Virus record (IMG/VR): IMGVR_UViG_3300044809_000117
Location: 1 to 22,084 of that record
Direction: 5' to 3' (one strand)
Source of the DNA: a virus
DNA: 22,084 nucleotides
Part shown: positions 9,553-21,760 of the stretch, piece by piece
How positions within the stretch are numbered: position 1 is the first letter of the stretch
How the letters are laid out: each line of letters starts with the position of its first letter
Made by a program: the position numbers and the translations under genes
Notes under the pieces: model-generated
Databases searched by the model: none
What the model was told of the DNA's origin: nothing
What the model saw: the letters and a program-made list of their open reading frames with translations, nothing else

Positions 9553-11400
9553 ATGACCGACACCCCCAACCTCGGCCTTCCCTTCATCGAAGGCAGCCAG
9601 GCGCAGAAGCACGTTACGCATAACGAGGCGCTGCGGATTCTCGATGCGGCGATCCAGGTTGTGGTGCAGGATCTGACGCGGACTTCGCCGCCGTCGTCGC
9701 CGGCCGAGGGCGAGCGGCATGTCGTGGCCTCCGGTGCGACCGGCGCGTGGGCGGGGCAGGGCAATGCGATCGCGACCTGGCAGGACGGCGCCTGGGCGTT
9801 CCTGGTGCCGCGCACCGGCTGGTGCATCTGGTCGGTGGCTGCCGACGTGATGTTCGTGTTCGACGGCACCCACTGGCGCGATCTGCGCGACCTGCCGGTG
9901 ACCCTGGATAATGCGGTTCATGTCGGCATCAATACCACCGCGAGCTCTCCGAATCTGCTCAGCGTCAAGTCGAACGCGGCGCTGCTCACGGCCATCAACG
10001 TCGCCGACGGCGGCAGCGGCGACGCGCGCTTGCAAATCTCCAAGGAGAGTGCTGCGAAAATCGCGTCGGTGTTTTTCTCCGACGCTTTTTCCGGACGCGC
10101 CGAATTTGGCCTCGTCGGCTCCGATGCGTTCAAGCTGAAAGTGTCCGGCGACGGCTCGGCGTGGGTCGAGGCCTTCAATATCGATCAAACGACGGGCAAT
10201 CTGTCATTGCCGCGCGGGTTAGCGCTGACCGGCGTCGTTTCGCCGCCGCAGCTCACCGCCAACCAGAACGACTACAACCCGACTGGCATCGCTACCGCCT
10301 CGGTGCTGCAGCTGTCGTCGGATGCGTCGCGCACCGTCACCGGCCTTGCCGGCGGCGCGGAGGGACGCGTCGTCAGCCTCATCAATATCGGCGGCCAGCC
10401 GATCGTGCTGGCGGACGAAAGTACGTCGTCATCAGCCGCCAATCGCTTCACGCTTGGCGCTAGCCTGACCATCGCCGCAAAGCAGGCGGCGATGTTGCGT
10501 TACGACGGCACCGCCGCGCGCTGGCGGCTGATCGCGGGCGCGACCGGGTTGCTGGCGGCGTCGAATAATCTTTCCGATGTTGCAAGCACAGCCGCTGCGC
10601 GCGCCAATCTCGGCGTTCGCGAGCAGCTGACGGCGAACCGCACCTACTATGTCCGCACCGACGGCTCCGACGGCAATAACGGCCTCGCCAATTCCAGCGG
10701 CGGCGCCTTTCTCACCATCCAGAAGGCGATCGACACCGTCGCGGCGCTGGACCTGTCGGTCTACACCGTCACCATCCAGGCCGCCGACGGTACCTACACG
10801 GGAGCGGTGACGGTTACCGGCCCCTGGGTTGGTTCCGGCAGCGTTACCCTTCAAGGCAATACGACGACGCCTGCCAACGCAGTGATCACGACGGCCGTCG
10901 CCGGCGCCGCCGCGCTTTCGGTTCAATCCGGCGGCCGTCTTTCCGTCGCCGGTTTCAAGCTGGTTTCGTCAGGCAGCGGTGCGACTGCGGGGTTGAAGTC
11001 GTCGGGTTCGGCGATCCTGGTGACGGGTGCGATGGATTTCGGCGCTGCCAACCGCCAAATGCAAGCGGCCGGAAGCGGCAGCATCACGTTCGGCGCCGGC
11101 ATCACCTACAACATCAGCGCGGGCGCGGTAACGCATATCTTCTGCTCGTCGAGCGGCAACGTCGCGATCGAAGGCTGCACCGTCACCACCACGGGAGCGA
11201 TCGCATTCTCCGGCGCGTTCGTGACGTCGTCATTCGTCGGCGCGGTGATCATCGACAGCAACACCTTCACAGGCGCGAGCGCTACGGGATCGCGCTACTC
11301 GATCACCGCCAACGGCGTGGTCTACACGGCCGGTGCCGCAACCACCTACCTGCCGGGCAACGCGGCCGGATCGACCGGCAGCGGCGGGCAGTACACTTAG
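9553..11400 (+). CDS. DUF2793 tail fibre with C-terminal beta-helix
   Basis: This 615-residue protein opens with MTDTPNLGLPFIEGSQAQKH and HNEALRILDAAIQ, the DUF2793 signature. GEWHV-like strands and FLVPRTGWCIWSVAADVMFVFDG follow, so the domain spans about residues 1-115. The middle (about 120-350) is a strand-rich fibre shaft region with LQISKESAAKIASVFFSD. From about residue 360, YYVRTDGSDGNNGLANSSGG opens a right-handed beta-helix of Gly/Thr/Val-rich rungs that ends at QYT. In RcGTA a DUF2793 tail fibre protein is encoded away from the main cluster; here it lies close behind it. An in-frame ATG at 9418 is less likely because the family starts at MTDTPNLGLP. Ligand is unknown, probably a surface glycan. 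Confidence 0.85.
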   Translation: MTDTPNLGLPFIEGSQAQKHVTHNEALRILDAAIQVVVQDLTRTSPPSSPAEGERHVVASGATGAWAGQGNAIATWQDGAWAFLVPRTGWCIWSVAADVMFVFDGTHWRDLRDLPVTLDNAVHVGINTTASSPNLLSVKSNAALLTAINVADGGSGDARLQISKESAAKIASVFFSDAFSGRAEFGLVGSDAFKLKVSGDGSAWVEAFNIDQTTGNLSLPRGLALTGVVSPPQLTANQNDYNPTGIATASVLQLSSDASRTVTGLAGGAEGRVVSLINIGGQPIVLADESTSSSAANRFTLGASLTIAAKQAAMLRYDGTAARWRLIAGATGLLAASNNLSDVASTAAARANLGVREQLTANRTYYVRTDGSDGNNGLANSSGGAFLTIQKAIDTVAALDLSVYTVTIQAADGTYTGAVTVTGPWVGSGSVTLQGNTTTPANAVITTAVAGAAALSVQSGGRLSVAGFKLVSSGSGATAGLKSSGSAILVTGAMDFGAANRQMQAAGSGSITFGAGITYNISAGAVTHIFCSSSGNVAIEGCTVTTTGAIAFSGAFVTSSFVGAVIIDSNTFTGASATGSRYSITANGVVYTAGAATTYLPGNAAGSTGSGGQYT

Positions 11401-12853: not shown

Positions 12854-13117
12854 ATGATCTCACGACGCATTCTGGCGGCGGCGGCCGCGCTGATCCTGCT
12901 GACATCCGGAGCGTCTGCTCAGCAACAGCCCGATCCCGCTACGTCACAGCGCTTGCTGGAAATAACCAAAGTTCAGCGCACGCAATTTCTCGAACTGTTC
13001 ACCGAGGCGATGGCGCGCGGCGACGTGCTTGCGAACGAGCTTTCGAAGGCTCAAGCGCGGATCAAGGAACTTGAGAAAAAGCAGGAAGACACGGCAACGC
13101 CTGCGAGTCCGCGCTGA
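12854..13117 (+). CDS. Small Sec-exported coiled-coil protein
   Basis: This 87-residue precursor has a clear signal peptide, MISRRILAAAAALILLTSGASAQ, with cleavage probably after ASA. The remaining 64 residues are helical: QRLLEITKVQRTQFLELFTE, then LANELSKAQARIKELEKKQE, ending in a Pro/Ser tail. CAGGAGAA at 12841-12848 gives a good start. A second, diverged copy lies at 15679-15924 with the same AQQQ.DPA...QR and KAxARIKEL landmarks, and that copy has a stop codon in place of Gln. The mature protein would be periplasmic and could form a helical oligomer. Function is not recognised. Confidence 0.72.
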   Translation: MISRRILAAAAALILLTSGASAQQQPDPATSQRLLEITKVQRTQFLELFTEAMARGDVLANELSKAQARIKELEKKQEDTATPASPR

Positions 13118-13893: not shown

Positions 13894-13933
13894 CTCTAAC
13901 TCTCTAACTCTCTAACTCTCTAACTCTCTAACT
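13894..13933 (+). repeat. Octamer tandem repeat (CTCTAACT) x 5
   Basis: Five perfect, contiguous copies of CTCTAACT lie just before CAAAGGA, the ribosome-binding sequence of the exported fibre-like gene starting at 13950. Copy number can change by slippage. Each change would move the ribosome-binding site eight bases from any upstream promoter or regulatory site without touching the coding frame. Confidence 0.95.
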
Positions 13934-13949
13934 CAAAGGAAAATTCAAA

Positions 13950-15716
13950 ATGATCTCACGACCCATTCCCGCGGCGGCGGCATTGCTGTGCACGCTGTCG
14001 GCGCCGGCGCAAGCGCAGTCCTCGGCGATTACGATCGATCCAACAGTTGGGACCACGAACCAGGGGCTGGTGATCAATCAAACCTTGCCATCAAGCGGCG
14101 TCGCTACCGGTCCGCTGCTCTTGAATTCGATAACGGCCACCAATCCGGGAACGTCGACTACTGGCGGCGGTTTGAATTGGGATGCCTTTGGTCAAATTCA
14201 AAACCAGATCAACGCTCTTAGGGTGAACTTCGCGACCAGCGCCGCCAACGGCACCAACAACGGTGCCTTCAGCGTTGCGAATTTTGTCACCGCGCCAGCG
14301 GAGAGCTACGGAGCGGCGACTGGCGTCACGATAGATGGGAATGCTTCAGGCCACGACGCATGGGGCTTCATCGGTTACGCTACCGTATGGCCCGGCGCGA
14401 CCGTCGGACCGTTGATAGGGATGGAGGCAGAAGTCGGAATTTCGAACGGCGGCAGTGCGACGTATCGTATTGGCGTCGGGTCCAACACCCAAGGCCCAGT
14501 GCAAGGCAGCGTACTTGATGCAGCCTTTATGGCGTCCAGCGGTGGGGTCACAGTTCCTGGGTCACTTCCAGGAGCGCTGGCGACCCCCTGGCAGCATCTT
14601 ATGGCGCTGGTCACCAATATCTTTGGCGCTGCCGGGTCGCCCATAACCCCGACTGGAGACTTCTTCTTTTCCGAGTCCCCGGTCACGGTCGCGCACTTCG
14701 CGAACCTGCCCAACGTCACCGTCACGGGGAACATTCTGGATTTCCCGAACATGGCCCTCTACGGAAACGGCTCAGCATCCTTCGGCGTCAGGGGCCTGCT
14801 GATACCGCCAGGAACCATATACAGTTCCTGTGCGTCCTGCGGAAACGCTCAGGTCTTCGGGGCGGCCAACGGCGCGAGCGGCGCTGACGGCATGACCATG
14901 CAGGACAGCGCCGGCACCAACATCATGTTCAGCGGGGTTGCCGAGGCGGGCAATACCTTCACTCGGTTCGGGCAAGTCACCGGTAACTGGGGCGAGCTGG
15001 TAACCCTCGGCTCGACCAACGCCGGCCTCATGATCGGCACGCTCACAAGTGCGCCCTTGATTATGGGCACCAACAACACGGAACGGGTCCGAGTGACCTC
15101 GGGCGGACTGTTCAACATCGGTCCGGCCGTTGCGCCCGACACGCTGCTGACCGTGAACGGCAATAGTGGCGCGTCCGCCGCGCCAGGGTTCGGCGTCGCG
15201 CAACTGCATCTGATCGGCCAAGACGGTCAGATCGGCGGTGCGTACGCGGACGTGTTCAGTGCGCAGGGCCTCTATGCCAATCGTCACGCGGGCGGAACGC
15301 TAGCGTCCAGGACTGCCAGTGCTGGTCTCACGACCACGATCAGCTTCTCGGCGCAGCATTGGGATACTTCGGTTTATTCGGCAAGTGCCAGCATGGACAT
15401 GGGTACGATCAATACCCAGTCCCTGACCGATCATAGCGGCTTCTGGCGGGTTCGCACGGTTGCGACCGGCTCGACGATCTTGACCGAACGCATGCGCGTC
15501 CAGCAGGGGCTTACGCTCGGCAACTCGACCAGCGACCCGGGCATCGGTCTGATCTATCTCAACAACGCCTCGTTCCTGATGCGCAACCTCACTTCATGGA
15601 CTAACGGCGCCGCCGCCGCGGCCGGCACGCTGACCAACGCTCCCGCCGCCGGAAACCCAACCAAATGGATACCCATCGATGACAATGGCACTACGCGCTA
15701 CATTCCTGCTTGGTAG
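13950..15716 (+). CDS. Sec-exported fibre-like beta-rich protein
   Basis: This 588-residue protein begins with a signal peptide, MISRPIPAAAALLCTLSAPA, cleaved probably after AQA. The body is rich in Gly, Thr, Ser and Asn with alternating strands. Toward residue 370 it has LMIGTLTSAPLIMGTNNTER and VRVTSGGLFNIGP, resembling the shaft before the chaperone of S74-type tail fibres, but no S74 domain follows. Residues about 385-540 align with residues about 442-590 of the spike at 19682-21760. The end reads KWIPIDDNGTTRYIPAW. A Sec signal on a fibre-type protein is odd: phage fibres are normally cytoplasmic until lysis. It may act as a surface or periplasmic adhesin. AAAGGA gives the ribosome-binding site. 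Confidence 0.75.
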   Translation: MISRPIPAAAALLCTLSAPAQAQSSAITIDPTVGTTNQGLVINQTLPSSGVATGPLLLNSITATNPGTSTTGGGLNWDAFGQIQNQINALRVNFATSAANGTNNGAFSVANFVTAPAESYGAATGVTIDGNASGHDAWGFIGYATVWPGATVGPLIGMEAEVGISNGGSATYRIGVGSNTQGPVQGSVLDAAFMASSGGVTVPGSLPGALATPWQHLMALVTNIFGAAGSPITPTGDFFFSESPVTVAHFANLPNVTVTGNILDFPNMALYGNGSASFGVRGLLIPPGTIYSSCASCGNAQVFGAANGASGADGMTMQDSAGTNIMFSGVAEAGNTFTRFGQVTGNWGELVTLGSTNAGLMIGTLTSAPLIMGTNNTERVRVTSGGLFNIGPAVAPDTLLTVNGNSGASAAPGFGVAQLHLIGQDGQIGGAYADVFSAQGLYANRHAGGTLASRTASAGLTTTISFSAQHWDTSVYSASASMDMGTINTQSLTDHSGFWRVRTVATGSTILTERMRVQQGLTLGNSTSDPGIGLIYLNNASFLMRNLTSWTNGAAAAAGTLTNAPAAGNPTKWIPIDDNGTTRYIPAW

Positions 15717-15924
15717 CCTGCTTCTCGCATCGGCCGCCGCCGCACAGCAGCAGCCGGCCGATCCGGCGTTTCTTCAGCGCGCGCTTGTTGCGCTGCAAGC
15801 CCAACGCAATCAGGCGATGGATTCCTCCGCCGCCCAACAGGCGCGCGCCGATGGGCTCGCGGAAGAACTCGCAAAGGCTTAGGCGCGGATCAAGGAGTTG
15901 ACGCCTGACGCCGCGCCGAAGTGA
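15679..15924 (+). pseudogene. Second small exported coiled-coil protein with an in-frame stop
   Basis: The frame starts at ATG 15679, 38 bases inside the end of the preceding gene, and encodes a signal peptide (MTMALRATFLLGSLLLASAA) and a helical stretch similar to the protein at 12854-13117. It meets TAG at 15880-15882 after GLAEELAKA. Reading through, the next residues ARIKELTPDAAPK end at TGA 15922-15924. The paralogue has GCT CAA GCG CGG ATC AAG at the same place, so one C-to-T change made a Gln codon into a stop. The truncated 67-residue form could still be made and exported, losing only the last 13 residues, so inactivation is not certain. Confidence 0.7.
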
Positions 15925-16046
15925 TTCGCCGAAACATCACTTGCATGCGGCCAGGGCGTGAATGCCGGGAAAGAATTGGCGAGCAGGGACCATCCTGCCC
16001 TGTACCCCGCAACCCTCCCGCTAGCAACTGCCACCTATAACTTATT

Positions 16047-16072
16047 CGCCGCCTTCGGGCGGCGTTTTCTTT
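16047..16072 (+). terminator. Intrinsic terminator
   Basis: CGCCGCC-TTCG-GGCGGCG (16047-16064) is a perfect seven-base stem with a TTCG loop, followed at once by TTTTCTTT. It ends the unit of exported genes and lies 12 bases before the endolysin start, so the endolysin must have its own promoter in the read-through or be expressed from leakage. The 120 bases before it hold nothing else I recognise. Confidence 0.9.
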
Positions 16073-16084
16073 GGGAGCCTGTCA

Positions 16085-16846
16085 ATGGCCTTCATCAACA
16101 TGCTCTACAACCTTTGGCCTAATGGCGATGAGAAAGTTCCTGGCCTGCGCGATGGTATCGCCGCAACGGCGCAGGCTGTCTTTAAAAAATATGGCGTCGA
16201 TAGCCCGCTTCTGGTCGCCCATGTCATGGCGCAGATCTCCCACGAATGCGGCGCGGGCCACGACGTGGTCGAGAACCTGAACTACACCGCGGGACGCATG
16301 ATGCAGGTGTGGCCGTCGCGCTTTCCGACCATGGCGAGCGCGGCGCCTTACGCCGGCAATCCGCGGGCGCTCGCCAACAAGGTCTACAACGGCCGCATGG
16401 GCAACGCGGCCGGCTCCGACGATGGCTGGAATTTTCGCGGCCGAGGTGCTGCGCAGACCACAGGGCGCGAGGGCTATGCGCGGCTGGCGAAGGCAACCGG
16501 CCTCGATCTCATCAACCATCCCGACCTGGTCAACGATCCCCAGCGGTTTCTCGAATGCGGCGTCGCCGATTTTATCCTGTGCGGCTGCCTCCCGTTCGCC
16601 AAGGCCGATGACGTCTTGAACGTCACACGGCGCCTGAACGGCGGCACTGTCGGCCTCGCGCAGCGCCAGATATGGCTTGCGAAATGGAAGGCGGCGCTGG
16701 GCACGGCGCCGATCGTGTTCGCGCCGGCGCCGGTCAGCGCGCGCAAGCCCGCGCCGGTTTCGCCGCCGCCACCGTCTGCCACGAAACCGCAGTCTCTGCT
16801 CGGGCGATTTATCGCCGCGCTGATCGTGGCTTTCAGGAGGAAGTAA
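16085..16846 (+). CDS. GH19-type endolysin (chitinase/lysozyme family) with C-terminal tail
   Basis: This 253-residue protein has a GH19 fold signature: VAHVMAQISHECGAGHDVVENLNYTAGRM, with probable catalytic E54, then NKVYNGRMGN and GWNFRGRGAAQTTGREGYARL. It ends the catalytic part near residue 205 (LNGGTVGLAQRQIWLAKWKA). A Pro/Ala linker follows (about 210-235) and a short hydrophobic, basic tail (SLLGRFIAALIVAFRRK). It should cleave the glycan strands of murein, releasing particles. The hydrophobic tail is unusual and may anchor or delay the enzyme at the membrane. The start has GGGAG 9-13 bases upstream. The stop TAA is followed directly by ATG 16847 with AGGAGG inside the last codons. Confidence 0.9.
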   Translation: MAFINMLYNLWPNGDEKVPGLRDGIAATAQAVFKKYGVDSPLLVAHVMAQISHECGAGHDVVENLNYTAGRMMQVWPSRFPTMASAAPYAGNPRALANKVYNGRMGNAAGSDDGWNFRGRGAAQTTGREGYARLAKATGLDLINHPDLVNDPQRFLECGVADFILCGCLPFAKADDVLNVTRRLNGGTVGLAQRQIWLAKWKAALGTAPIVFAPAPVSARKPAPVSPPPPSATKPQSLLGRFIAALIVAFRRK

Positions 16847-17030
16847 ATGTGGAGTGTCATGCGCGGGCTTGACTCGCCCGAGAGGTGAAGTCCGCCGGTG
16901 CGGTAAGGGCCTCGTGGTTCGATCAACCTTGACGATAGTCGTACAATTAGAAGCGGCCATCGCCCGTCGTACCCTGCAACTTATTCGCGAACAAGCCGCC
17001 AAATCAAATTGTCTACCGCTCCATGCCCGA
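16847..17030. other. Gap holding a short dead-end frame and the first 60-bp repeat
   Basis: A 13-codon frame starts at ATG 16847, right behind the AGGAGG in the endolysin's last codons, and stops at 16886-16888. It has the position of a downstream gene whose body has been lost. The remainder contains TGCGCGGGCTTGACTCGC, a fragment resembling common alphaproteobacterial intergenic repeats, and the first copy of the 60-bp direct repeat. Confidence 0.4.
16971..17030 (+). repeat. Diverged 60-bp direct repeat, left copy
   Basis: This block aligns without gaps to 19451-19510 (49 of 60 bases equal by hand count); shared core CGCGAACAAGCCGC. Similarity falls off just before 16971. The two copies flank the YfhO-family gene. 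Many differences lie at every third base in the frame that reads LIREQAA, suggesting the block was once part of a coding sequence. Confidence 0.7.
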
Positions 17031-19292
17031 CTAGGCCATGCCGCCTTCGGCAACGTGCTGCGCTCTTATTACCGGAAGCCGGCGATGTCGATAACGTCCC
17101 AGAACAGCCATAAGGATGACAATGACCCAGACAACATGGGCTATCCAGGCGAAGCGCACGAAGGGCATGAACTGCAGTCTGACGAGCTCCGATGTGGCGG
17201 GGATCACGACGCCCTGGAACGCACCGTTAACCGGAACGGTGCGCGCAACCTGCCATCCCGACGCGGTCCTGACGGAAGCGCGCCAGTCATTATGGTATTG
17301 CTGACTGAGGGTCAAAACCGAATCTGTATCGGGATAATTGTGAACCTCGAATTCCAGCACATCGCCTTGGTCTGATGTCTTGACCGGTCGAATCCCCTCG
17401 CGCGTGGTTGAAGAGATATCGCCAGGCCCGGCTTTCGTTGTGGTTGGTGACTGGAGGCAGCACCCCATGCTGTCGCGGACGCGATAGAGCTGAAGCGTCC
17501 CCTCGGCGCCGAACCTTTCAAGGTTGGGGTGAAGGATCGGCGCCGGCGATATCACCAGACCGATGTTGCTCATCCAGAAGACGTGGCTGCCGAAGTCAGG
17601 TGCAACCATGCTGTTCCATCGCCCGTACTGTTCGGTTTCGCCGCCCAGTTCGCGGAGCAGCGCCTGGTATCGATGAGACGACAAACTGTCATAGCTGTGA
17701 ATCGAAGCGACACCAAAAATAGTGTTCGAGTTTGGAAGCAGCACATCCACGCCCGGAGCGATGAGAGCAATTCGCGTTCCGGCTGGAGTCGCCGCGATCA
17801 CCCGTTTGACCAGATCCGAATTCCGGATCAGGTCGGTCGCAGGCCGCCGCAGCATCAGGGGAAAAGCGGTGCAGGCGCCGGTCAGCCCCAGCGCGGCGAT
17901 CAGGGCAACGGATCGAAGCGAACCGACGAGGCAGCCGGCGAGAAGCAGGATTATGGCCAGCATTGCCGCCGCGATACCCCATCGGATGGTCATGCCAGCC
18001 GTCCAGCAAAAGCACAGTACGGCGATGAGACTGACCGTGGTTCCGATTATCGACCATTTGACCCCGCCAGTCCGGAACGGAGATTGCGCGGTCAGTGCGT
18101 TGACGCCATAGGCGGAAACGATGGCCAACGGCAAAACAAGCGTGCCCAGTGGATTGTCGCGCGAGAGGTTGAAGCCCAGGTGCCGCACGCCGAATGCGTA
18201 GAGCGGATGAACAAACGCAAAAGCGCAAACAATGACAATCGCGAGCCACCAGCCCCACGTCTGCCGCGAGCATCGCAGCAAGCTGAACAAGGCAAGAAAG
18301 AGAATCACCGGCGTGATGCTCACCCCGTCATAGGGCAGGGGGAACGATGGCGAGACCGGGTTTGCGATGATCTCCGGGAAGGTACCGGTCGCGAAAGTAC
18401 GCATCAGCGTCGTGAAGGAATCGATTGTCGGTAGCGTCGCCATGAAGAACGACACATCGGTCGCGATGCGGGCGGAGCGCGAGGCAGTGCTGGCAATATC
18501 CAGAACGTTGGGCGCCGAAAGCAGGATTCCGCCGACGCCAAAAACTGCCACTGCGCCCAGATATTTGATGGCCGCAGCGGTGCCTGCTGACTTCCGGCGC
18601 CGCTGCAACGCCCACAGCATAAATCCCGCCAGCAGGTAGGCCTCGAAAACGACCCCCTGTGAGTGCGCCGTCATCATGAGGCTGTAGCAGCTGAAGGCAA
18701 GAACGGCGCCTCCCGGCAAATCGATTTGCCTTGCCATGCGCGTCAGCGCGTAGAACGCGCCGGCAGACCAGCAGGTTACCGCAAGAAACATGGGAAAGGT
18801 CAGCCAGTACATCATTAGCGGCGCCGCGGCGACGCTTCCTCCGGCAATGAGGCCAGCGAGAGGATTCAAGGACAGTTCCTTGCACAGCAGCATCACAAAC
18901 AGGCCCGCAAGAAAGCAAAGACCAAGCGACATCAGGGTCAGCAATCGGGCGGGGTTGTTGGTGATCTTCGCAAGAACCCACATCGGCGTATAGGCGCCGC
19001 TGAATCCGCCTTGATAGAGCGGCCTGCCGAGTTCGTTGGTGCTGGTCCACAATGCGAGCCAGCCCGATCGTGGAGCTTGCACGTGACTTTGAATTTCAGG
19101 AATAAAGAAATGCCAATAATCGAAGAACTTGCCGTTCTCGGTATACGCCGACGGCGTGCGCGGCGGTCCTGTTTCCGCGGCTAATGGGTAAGGCGCGACG
19201 ACTTCGCCGAACATCCAGAACGGGTGGATCAGCGCGAAAAATAAAGCGACGTAGATCAGCAAGGCGCTTCTGAAGCTCAGTTTACGGTCCAT
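17031..19292 (-). CDS. YfhO-family polytopic membrane protein (GT-C-like)
   Basis: This 753-residue protein has about a dozen hydrophobic spans in the first 500 residues, then a soluble domain of about 210 residues, and a final span (FAWIAHVVWVIVILMAVLG) near the C terminus. The first loop has FFDYWHFFIPEIQ after span 1, and later LGFNLSRDNPLGTLVLPLAI. The layout is that of bacterial YfhO-family proteins, related to GT-C glycosyltransferases, some of which glycosylate surface polymers. It is alone on the minus strand between phage-like + genes, with repeats on both sides, so it was probably inserted. No strong ribosome-binding site is visible before ATG 19292. Donor and acceptor cannot be read from sequence; a surface-glycan role is inference. 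Confidence 0.75.
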   Translation of the reverse strand: MDRKLSFRSALLIYVALFFALIHPFWMFGEVVAPYPLAAETGPPRTPSAYTENGKFFDYWHFFIPEIQSHVQAPRSGWLALWTSTNELGRPLYQGGFSGAYTPMWVLAKITNNPARLLTLMSLGLCFLAGLFVMLLCKELSLNPLAGLIAGGSVAAAPLMMYWLTFPMFLAVTCWSAGAFYALTRMARQIDLPGGAVLAFSCYSLMMTAHSQGVVFEAYLLAGFMLWALQRRRKSAGTAAAIKYLGAVAVFGVGGILLSAPNVLDIASTASRSARIATDVSFFMATLPTIDSFTTLMRTFATGTFPEIIANPVSPSFPLPYDGVSITPVILFLALFSLLRCSRQTWGWWLAIVIVCAFAFVHPLYAFGVRHLGFNLSRDNPLGTLVLPLAIVSAYGVNALTAQSPFRTGGVKWSIIGTTVSLIAVLCFCWTAGMTIRWGIAAAMLAIILLLAGCLVGSLRSVALIAALGLTGACTAFPLMLRRPATDLIRNSDLVKRVIAATPAGTRIALIAPGVDVLLPNSNTIFGVASIHSYDSLSSHRYQALLRELGGETEQYGRWNSMVAPDFGSHVFWMSNIGLVISPAPILHPNLERFGAEGTLQLYRVRDSMGCCLQSPTTTKAGPGDISSTTREGIRPVKTSDQGDVLEFEVHNYPDTDSVLTLSQQYHNDWRASVRTASGWQVARTVPVNGAFQGVVIPATSELVRLQFMPFVRFAWIAHVVWVIVILMAVLGRYRHRRLPVIRAQHVAEGGMA

Positions 19293-19450
19293 TCAGAATA
19301 CCGGTCCGAGACTCTGCAAATTCGCGTCCAGAACGATTGTCGCAATGCGCGGCAGCGGCCCCGGTGGATGCAGCAAGGATGGACTTCCGCGCCATCCGCG
19401 GCGGCCGGTCGCCCACAAACCCTTGAGCAGACGAGACCGTGCTTTGTCCT

Positions 19451-19510
19451 ACCGTGCAGCTAATCCGCGAACAAGCCGCTAACTCAGATTTTCCAGCGCT
19501 CCACGCCCGA
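19451..19510 (+). repeat. Diverged 60-bp direct repeat, right copy
   Basis: The partner of 16971-17030, same orientation, offset exactly 2480 bases. Here it is joined directly to an endolysin 3' end remnant. The preceding gap 19293-19450 shows nothing I can name. Confidence 0.7.
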
Positions 19511-19514
19511 CCAG

Positions 19515-19610
19515 CCGGCTTTGCCGCCGGTTACGCCACCGTCTGCCACGTCGCAGTCTCCGCTCGCGCGATTGATTGCCGCTTTGGTCGCGGCGTTCCG
19601 CAGAAAATAA
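19515..19610 (+). pseudogene. Remnant of an endolysin 3' end
   Basis: Read in frame to TAA 19608-19610 this encodes PALPPVTPPSATSQSPLARL followed by IAALVAAFRRK. It matches the linker and tail of the intact endolysin (PVSPPPPSATKPQSLLGRF, then IAALIVAFRRK). The catalytic domain is absent upstream; instead the 60-bp repeat is joined to it. It sits about 70 bases before the spike gene. The matching tail and stop position leave little doubt that it is a duplicated end of the endolysin gene or of a close relative. Confidence 0.8.
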
Positions 19611-19681
19611 CGCCCGTCTCCGGGCCCCCCGCGCAGGCGCATCGAAAATTTTCCGACCTCTTAACCCCGAAGGAGCCGACC

Positions 19682-21760
19682 ATGACCCAGCTTGTCTTCA
19701 ATACCTATGATGACCTCATTGCCGCTGCGCCCTCAGCGGGGGATACCGCGGTGCTGCTCGGCTATGCGTGGAAAGGCGACGGCGGCGGAGGCGACCTGAT
19801 CTGGGACAGCGCTTCCACCGCGACGCCGCACACCTCGATCATCATCCAGCGCGCCGCCGGCGGCACCGGTCGCTGGTTTCGCCTGTTCGACGAACAGGAC
19901 GGACCAGTCAACATCAGATGGTTCGGTGCGCTCGGCGATAGCGTGACCGACGACAAAGCCGCGATCGATGCGGCGATCGCCTATTGCGTCGCCAGAAGTC
20001 GTACCCTGGGATTCCCTGATGGCACCTATGCGCATGCCGGCGCGATCAATTGGGCCTTCAACCATCTCCACGTCATGGCGCTCGGCGATGATGTCGTTTT
20101 TCTTCATACCGGCACGGGCGTTGCACACAGTTTCAGCGGCATCGCGAACTACCCGGGAACGCAAGGCTGCGTCGGCGGCGTGTTCGGCGGCCCTGGCCGG
20201 ATCATGCTGAAGGGCAACCTTGCCGGCACCACCACGCGGGTTATCGATCTGGACAACTGGCATCAAGGCTACATGAAGGTGGCGCTTCATGACGGGCAGA
20301 CCGCTTTCTACGGTAATGATACCGGTGGAGTCGGTTCGTCCGCCGTGGAAACCACCTTCGACCTGCGCATCACGTCCCAGGACGGTCCTTGGGCGCATCA
20401 GCCCGGTCATGGTGTCGACTTTACCAAGCCGGTCGCCTGCATCTTCGAAAAATTGATCGTCGAGAACGTCGGAAACGGCGGTGTCACCGCTGTCGCCCTC
20501 ACCGGCGCGGCTAACAACTTGTTCCGGGGCGGCACCGTCGAAGGCAATCTCGGAAGCGGCATTACCGAAGACAGCACTTGCAGTCATAATACCTATATCC
20601 AGCTCGCCAACGAAGCAAACGGCGGGACCAACGACTGGATTCTGTCCGGGACCGCGCCGGTCCTGATCAACTGCAATGGCGGCGGCGCCAACGGATGTCT
20701 GTTCAACAGCACCAGCGCCACGTTGATCGGCGGCGTGTTCTATAATGTCGTGATCAACGACAACAATCTGTGGTCCAATTCAACCGAGTTTCACGGCAGT
20801 TTCACCAATAACGGAACACATACCACCATTATCAATCCGCAAGGAGGCGTGGCGACTGCGGTGGAGTCCGCCGCCACTGTCCTGCAGTCCAAGACATTCG
20901 ACACCGCAAACGCCAATACACTCAAGATCAATAGCAACACCGTCAACGCTGTCACTGGAACTGGCAGCACGGTCGCGCTGAGCGCGGCACCGCGGTTTAC
21001 GGGGCAGGTCGAGATTGGTGCGAATGTCGCGCCGGATTCGACCTTGACGGTGAATAACAATACCGGAGCTGCTGTTGCGCCGTCGCTGCCGCGTGAGCTG
21101 CATCTGATTGGCGCCGACGCCGCCTTCAGTGGCGTTCTCTCCGACAACTATGGCAGCGAGGGTCTTTATCTCGCGAGGGCGGCGGACGGCACCCAGGCCA
21201 GCAAAATCGCCATCGGCCCCCATACGTCATATTTCGCGATAGGCGGACAAACATGGGACGGGTCTGCCTACACCAGCAACATTGCAATCGAGTTCATGAC
21301 GGTCAATACGCAGACGGGATCGGATCATAGTTCCCGCGTTCGCATCAAGACCGTGCCGGCGGGAAGCACGACGGTCCAGGAGGTCGTCAGCTTCGGGTCT
21401 GGCGTATCGGTTGGAACGACGACGGATTACGGCCTGCAGAATTTGCTGGTGGCCGGCTCGGTCTCAACCGCGTCTCCGGTCACGCTCACCGGCACCTCGG
21501 GATCGGCCGGCGCGACCGACAGTTCGATCATCGTCAACGCATCCGGCACATTCACGCTGACGCTGCCGCCGGCTGCGAGCTATTCCGGCCGATGGCTGAG
21601 CCTGAAATCGATCGCCGCCCAAACCGTCAACAGCGCGTCGTCGAACGTGGTGCCCCTCGCGGGCGGCGCGTCCGGCACGGCGCTGCTCACGGCAGCCGCG
21701 GGAAAATGGGCCAACCTGCAATCGGACGGCACCAACTGGATCGTCATGTCGGCGAACTAG
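19682..21760 (+). CDS. Pectate-lyase-like tail spike
   Basis: This 692-residue protein begins MTQLVFNTYDDLIAAAPSAG, an N-terminal particle-binding segment common in tail spikes. VNIRWFGALGDSVTDDKAAIDAAIAYC, about residues 78-104, is the classic entry of a pectate-lyase superfamily beta-helix. The helix runs to about residue 400 with Asn/Gly-rich rungs. Residues about 442-590 form the domain shared with the exported protein at 13950-15716, and the last 100 residues resemble generic fibre ends (SGRWLSLKSIAAQ, ANLQSDGTNWIVMSAN). Such spikes bind and often cut surface polysaccharide. AGGAG at 19671-19675 fixes the start at 19682; the frame open upstream to 19439 covers repeat and remnant sequence. 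No signal peptide is present. Confidence 0.85.
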   Translation: MTQLVFNTYDDLIAAAPSAGDTAVLLGYAWKGDGGGGDLIWDSASTATPHTSIIIQRAAGGTGRWFRLFDEQDGPVNIRWFGALGDSVTDDKAAIDAAIAYCVARSRTLGFPDGTYAHAGAINWAFNHLHVMALGDDVVFLHTGTGVAHSFSGIANYPGTQGCVGGVFGGPGRIMLKGNLAGTTTRVIDLDNWHQGYMKVALHDGQTAFYGNDTGGVGSSAVETTFDLRITSQDGPWAHQPGHGVDFTKPVACIFEKLIVENVGNGGVTAVALTGAANNLFRGGTVEGNLGSGITEDSTCSHNTYIQLANEANGGTNDWILSGTAPVLINCNGGGANGCLFNSTSATLIGGVFYNVVINDNNLWSNSTEFHGSFTNNGTHTTIINPQGGVATAVESAATVLQSKTFDTANANTLKINSNTVNAVTGTGSTVALSAAPRFTGQVEIGANVAPDSTLTVNNNTGAAVAPSLPRELHLIGADAAFSGVLSDNYGSEGLYLARAADGTQASKIAIGPHTSYFAIGGQTWDGSAYTSNIAIEFMTVNTQTGSDHSSRVRIKTVPAGSTTVQEVVSFGSGVSVGTTTDYGLQNLLVAGSVSTASPVTLTGTSGSAGATDSSIIVNASGTFTLTLPPAASYSGRWLSLKSIAAQTVNSASSNVVPLAGGASGTALLTAAAGKWANLQSDGTNWIVMSAN

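Follow-up and report, generated by a model that had tools for sequence, protein, structure and literature searches.

The L-shaped tail fibre of bacteriophage T5 is a component of the virion and is not known to be exported. Mosaic adhesive trimer (MAT) proteins of Bdellovibrio, reported in 2024, show that a predatory bacterium can carry phage-like fibres on the outside of its cell: they are exported chimeric fibres with signal peptides, phage-fibre-like trimeric shafts, varied tips and, in some cases, disulphides (PMC10769870). Directly after the MAT signal peptide lies a conserved β-rich domain of about 130 amino acids, which, according to that report, has no structural homologue in the PDB. 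The tail fibre and head spike of the gene transfer agent (GTA) RcGTA are described as binding capsule (PMC10218006). Here, we analyze the 22,084-base IMG/VR record IMGVR_UViG_3300044809_000117, referred to as a whole as the window, in which two plus-strand genes encode products sharing a C-terminal domain: P1 (13950..15716, 588 amino acids; translation, BLASTP and signal rule), a candidate exported chimeric fibre protein, and P2 (19682..21760, 692 amino acids), a tailspike-like protein without a signal peptide. With moderate confidence, P1 is interpreted as a Sec-exported, MAT-like chimeric fibre that is probably a glycan-binding adhesin, and P2 as a conventional, unexported tailspike.

The shared domain spans residues 386-532 of P1 (15105..15545, +) and 441-585 of P2 (21002..21436, +). 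BLASTP of the translated genes aligned the two copies with 59 of 147 positions identical (40%, E 1e-26), in the stretch where the initial annotation had located a common C-terminal module, and no third copy was found in the window. A profile built from eight fibre segments of other phage contigs, without rows from the window or from the compared loci L021, L045 and L048, still recovered both P1 (independent E-value 7.3e-7) and P2 (2.3e-6), so the likeness cannot be put down to low-complexity chance. Profile searches of six-frame open reading frames (ORFs) of the compared loci yielded further members in L005, L007, L015, L018, L052, L055 and L066. Two PHROG tail-fibre families match seven and six of 13 domain members, respectively, and 37 domain matches were obtained in a viral library at E 0.001, including tail-fibre proteins, chaperone-bearing proteins and many uncharacterised phage proteins. 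No Pfam family matched the P1 domain, and the 13 members together gave just two single weak Pfam matches. The P1 domain alone found no relative among viral contigs, and phmmer against PDB sequences (E up to 1) returned nothing for P1 or P2. The shared domain is thus a member of a widespread phage tail-fibre domain.

Profile and fold comparisons link this domain to MAT proteins and to T5. When the 13-row profile A8 was searched against PDB sequences, the best match was Bd1334 (8OML, 2.5e-18), followed by 8ON4 (4.1e-14) and Bd2439 (8OL4, 7e-14; names of the Bd1334 and Bd2439 entries as given in PMC10769870), with the T5 L-shaped tail fibre matched through 4UW7 (1.1e-7), 5AQ5 and 4UW8. The MAT link rests on this wider profile because the narrower three-row profile A2 reached the PDB at E 0.059 at best. 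A structural model of the domain, in which residues 61-130 fall into blocks with a mean predicted local distance difference test score (pLDDT) of 74-88 and the remainder scores lower, matched 8OML in Foldseek (8.6e-6) and, by VIA, gave Z 10.5 over 98 residues to 8OML, 9.3 to 4UW7 and 8.8 to 8ONF; the next protein, an Acinetobacter phage tailspike, followed at Z 5.7. Structure prediction, which the initial annotation had proposed as a check, therefore places MAT and T5 fibres as the best fold matches, and because the domain matches both, a trimer-forming shaft or tip part is probably the right class, in line with the trimer-forming role suggested there. P1 and P2 resemble the C-terminal region of the T5 fibre (4UW7, 5AQ5) in domain homology and fold, but the T5 fibre carries an intramolecular chaperone, whereas neither P1 nor P2 has a Pfam match to such a chaperone.

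The two proteins differ at their N-termini. P1 begins, behind the ribosome-binding site AAAGGA, with MISRPIPAAAALLCTLSAPAQA followed by Q (13950..14015, +), a segment whose positively charged end and hydrophobic core lead up to a putative cleavage point between AQA and Q. By rule, this is a typical Sec signal, and its DNA resembles that of a small gene at 12854 and of two spike genes in L019. P2 has a clean start (MTQLVFNTYDD behind GAAGGAG) without a signal, followed by the start of a β-helix (PF12708, partial match at residues 76-123, 19907..20050, +, E 7.1e-7). It has an equally signal-less homologue in L021 (15133-17298, 52% identity over 517 aligned positions), encoded directly after an endolysin. 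A tblastn search with P2 in phages gave one weak tip match only. P2 thus combines a β-helix body and a fibre-type C-terminus with the lack of a signal, as in tailspikes. The early suggestion that one module is used both on a protein with a Sec signal and on a signal-less, β-helical one holds, with the P1 signal called by rule; export of P1 and a tailspike role of P2 are what we infer from these features.

Beyond the shared domain, both proteins end in exchangeable tips, which differ between them. The P1 tip module (residues 535-588, 15552..15713, +) is 85% identical to that of a signal-bearing spike in L054, and the last 54 amino acids of P1 are also found at 70% identity on signal-less fibre ORFs in L003 and L004. 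The P2 tip module (residues 590-692, 21449..21757, +) is widespread in phage fibres, and P2 domain and tip together are 61% identical over 255 amino acids to a signal-bearing phage fibre in L048. Tips shared by both kinds of body indicate that they move between signal-bearing and signal-less proteins. The initial annotation had also raised the idea that the exported protein might block or mimic the receptor of the spike; a common binding domain would mean that the same ligand is bound rather than that the receptor is mimicked, and the tips of P1 and P2 are not alike.

Further evidence for export comes from the DNA of the signal segments and from cysteine content. The P1 signal DNA matches that of the 12854 gene at 30 of the first 36 nucleotides and that of the L019 spikes at 53 of 69, while the genes sharing it have unrelated mature parts. 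Around their starts, between about -40 and +70, the two L019 spikes are almost the same (38/40, 40/40 and 32/40 for three blocks), but they differ beyond this stretch in both directions. Mature parts of eight signal-bearing proteins contain 55 cysteines in 5,170 residues, compared with 33 in 9,927 residues of 25 ORFs without a signal, selected by position from three of the contigs that also encode signal-bearing proteins (p 9e-8); cysteine richness is expected of exported proteins. The number is even in seven of the eight. Cysteine pairs are spaced more tightly than chance in protein P0004 (p 0.012) and the L048 spike (0.005), with L054 borderline (0.075), but not in P2 (0.30) or its L021 homologue (0.96). 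In an alignment of β-helices, P0004 and L048 have one cysteine pair in common, of which L054 lacks both members. At four alignment columns, two signal-bearing collar proteins both have a cysteine, and none of seven signal-less phage homologues does. Together, cysteine and signal data favour real export of the group and bear indirectly on P1 itself, given its two cysteines.

Based on these observations, we hypothesize that P1 arose when a Sec signal peptide was joined to a fibre body whose C-terminal end consists of a T5/MAT-type domain and an exchangeable tip. P1 would be cleaved, translocated by Sec and trimerise outside the cytoplasm; like the MAT proteins of Bdellovibrio, it would bind glycans as an adhesin that stays on the cell surface or is released from it. 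P2 would be the version that is not exported, serving as tailspike of a GTA or phage particle and drawing on the same pool of tip modules. P1 shares with Bd1334 and Bd2439 a signal peptide (by rule), a homologous fibre domain and exchangeable C-terminal tips, the latter mosaic in the sense that tips are common to different bodies. Domain homology and fold are compatible with a phage-fibre-like, possibly trimeric shaft. In contrast to MAT proteins, P1 is shorter, has an N-terminal part without a detected relative and a different short tip module, shows no S74 domain, adjoins a GTA tail cluster and has its relatives in phage contigs. P1 most plausibly works like a MAT protein and is a candidate member of that superfamily.

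Several points weigh against this interpretation. Signal peptides were called by a home-made rule rather than by SignalP, and the mature part of P1 has only two cysteines, at positions 294 and 297. Signal-less P2 and its L021 homologue hold 6 and 10 cysteines; adding them and the signal-less DUF2793 fibre of the window to the controls weakens the contrast (52 in 11,955, p 6e-6), the counts are not independent because the eight signal-bearing proteins are partly homologous, and pair spacing in the collars is no tighter than chance (0.18 each). Since a full-length P1 model from eight rows reached a pLDDT of only 39 and was discarded, residues 23-384 are left without a known fold. No outer-membrane anchor was recognised in P1, nor was a MAT N-terminal domain, although no MAT N-terminal sequence served as query. 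The shortened state of P1's small partner gene means that the locus may be undergoing decay, and signal-bearing fibres were found in five records only, window included, possibly from related samples. Passage of P1 across the outer membrane is left unexplained by this model.

Alternatively, export could serve the phage or GTA itself. A fibre in the periplasm or on the lysogen surface might occupy or alter the receptor, thus controlling superinfection or re-adsorption, or act as a lysogenic-conversion factor. Fitting this idea, in the contractile-tailed phages L045 and L048 (same contigs as L093 and L096, respectively) the tail-fibre position between the baseplate wedge and the lysis genes is taken by collar and fibre genes with signals, which alternate with signal-less fibre parts. 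These phages are identified by sheath, tape measure, hub and wedge genes (PHROG) in L093, and L096 has the genes in the same order. Lambda Lom, a membrane protein with a signal whose gene lies between those for spike and fibre, is noted to be expressed in lysogeny (PMC12309495). In the window, however, host-type genes separate P1 from the GTA tail genes, and we regard this explanation as unlikely. The fibre-cassette position in two contractile phages, together with cysteine enrichment, would also fit signal-bearing fibres that are exported, disulfide-folded in the periplasm and added to particles at lysis. Each cassette nevertheless includes signal-less fibre parts able to serve the particle, and no tailed phage is known to export fibres for periplasmic maturation, lysogen coating or loading at lysis; this is the least probable of the explanations considered. 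A limited literature search brought up, MAT proteins apart, no exported tailed-phage fibres, which is weak evidence of absence. In a broader, speculative and rather improbable version, certain phages and GTA loci would encode whole sets of tail fibres that are exported by Sec, stabilised by disulfides and accompanied by small helical partners that are exported as well. Such sets would have been built by transfer of a signal-peptide DNA cassette to ordinary fibre modules, and the fibres would mature in the periplasm and either coat the lysogen or be loaded onto particles at lysis.

P1 might also be a functionless relic in which a duplicated signal segment became fused by chance to remains of phage fibres. 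Heavy module shuffling in the region, the small partner ORF shortened by a stop and the disrupted frame of L019 spike 1 point in this direction, but the P1 frame is intact over 588 amino acids behind a good ribosome-binding site, and intact signal-bearing spikes are present in L019, L048 and L054; a relic is quite improbable, somewhat more so than phage-serving export. The presence of the MAT fibre domain on a protein with a signal next to a GTA cluster, together with fibres with signals in the corresponding slot of contractile phages, suggests a route to bacterial adhesins by combining a signal segment with phage fibre modules. For tailed phages, it raises the question of why they would export their own fibres.

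The window holds a GTA tail cluster. Matches above cut-off to NF048004 (4685..8536, +, 1777.8 bits), TIGR02218, TIGR02217 and TIGR02219 correspond to the megatron, hub, distal tail and NlpC proteins of the GTA type. The record is a linear fragment beginning at the tail genes, which are followed by the DUF2793 fibre protein of the cluster (9553..11400, +, family match). Its tail genes thus resemble those of RcGTA-type GTAs, but unlike RcGTA the window has no head genes, and P1 and P2 matched no RcGTA part. In view of GTA-type tail genes in a record classed as viral in IMG/VR, the window may be a chromosome fragment. By analogy with the capsule-binding fibre and spike of RcGTA, a fibre that carries a related domain on the surface could compete with them for these receptors. 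Downstream of the GTA tail, P1 and P2 are found among host-type genes (a fatty acid hydroxylase and a 753-amino-acid minus-strand protein) and an endolysin-like gene (16085..16846, +, PHROG endolysin). Direct repeats of 69 bp (81%; 16966-17034 and 19446-19514) flank the minus-strand gene between endolysin and P2; as L021 lacks a gene at that place, it looks like an insertion. The slot after the DUF2793 fibre is occupied in L019 by two signal-bearing β-helix spikes.

A perfect 8-bp tandem repeat, CTCTAACT, in 5.1 copies (13894..13934, +; Tandem Repeats Finder score 82, against 39 for the runner-up in the window) lies directly upstream of the P1 ribosome-binding site. It is a possible phase-variation tract that could make P1 expression phase variable. 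Among the compared loci the repeat occurs only in L001, the window's own copy; as it was unseen in L019, L048 and L045, it was rejected as a general feature.

Besides the window, four records encode signal-bearing fibre-type proteins (L019, which shares a contig with L056; L045; L048; and L054). One survey found signals in 5 of 22 ORFs (two in L019, one in L045, two in L048), and a second found credible ones in 2 of 30 (L054 and a short L056 ORF), so export tags appear rare among such fibres overall. Calls in L063 and L070 were rejected as false because they rest on internal starts. In light of the second survey and of the signal-less collar homologue of Bradyrhizobium phage ppBeUSDA76-2, export as a property common to all such phage fibres was rejected. 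Searches by tblastn returned nothing for P1 in the phage collection, for its C-terminal part in plasmids, or for P0004 in phages and plasmids, and family searches gave no match for P1 residues 23-384.

A small signal-bearing ORF follows each of the five spike-type genes with a signal (P1, two in L019, the L048 and L054 spikes) but is absent after the two signal-bearing fibres and two collars. The one behind P1 (15685..15882, +) encodes a helical protein, overlaps the P1 end and is shortened by an in-frame stop relative to its relatives. A further small signal-bearing helical protein, with the same 5' signal segment (signal rule, DNA comparison), is encoded at 12854..13117 (+), and additional helical-looking ones are found in L019 (18083-18343, 20908-21219), L048 (7968-8252) and L099 (2366-2578, -); all except that at 12854 come after a signal-bearing spike or P1. 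These small proteins are possibly chaperones or spanin-like. A short signal-bearing ORF in L019 (21236-21634), in which the N-terminus of a fibre is fused to a C-terminal piece of a fibre, resembles what a deletion would leave behind. The signal-bearing collar protein of L045 (2398-3573) contains long 15-base repeat arrays that translate into glycine/threonine-rich and LSVPG-type repeats.

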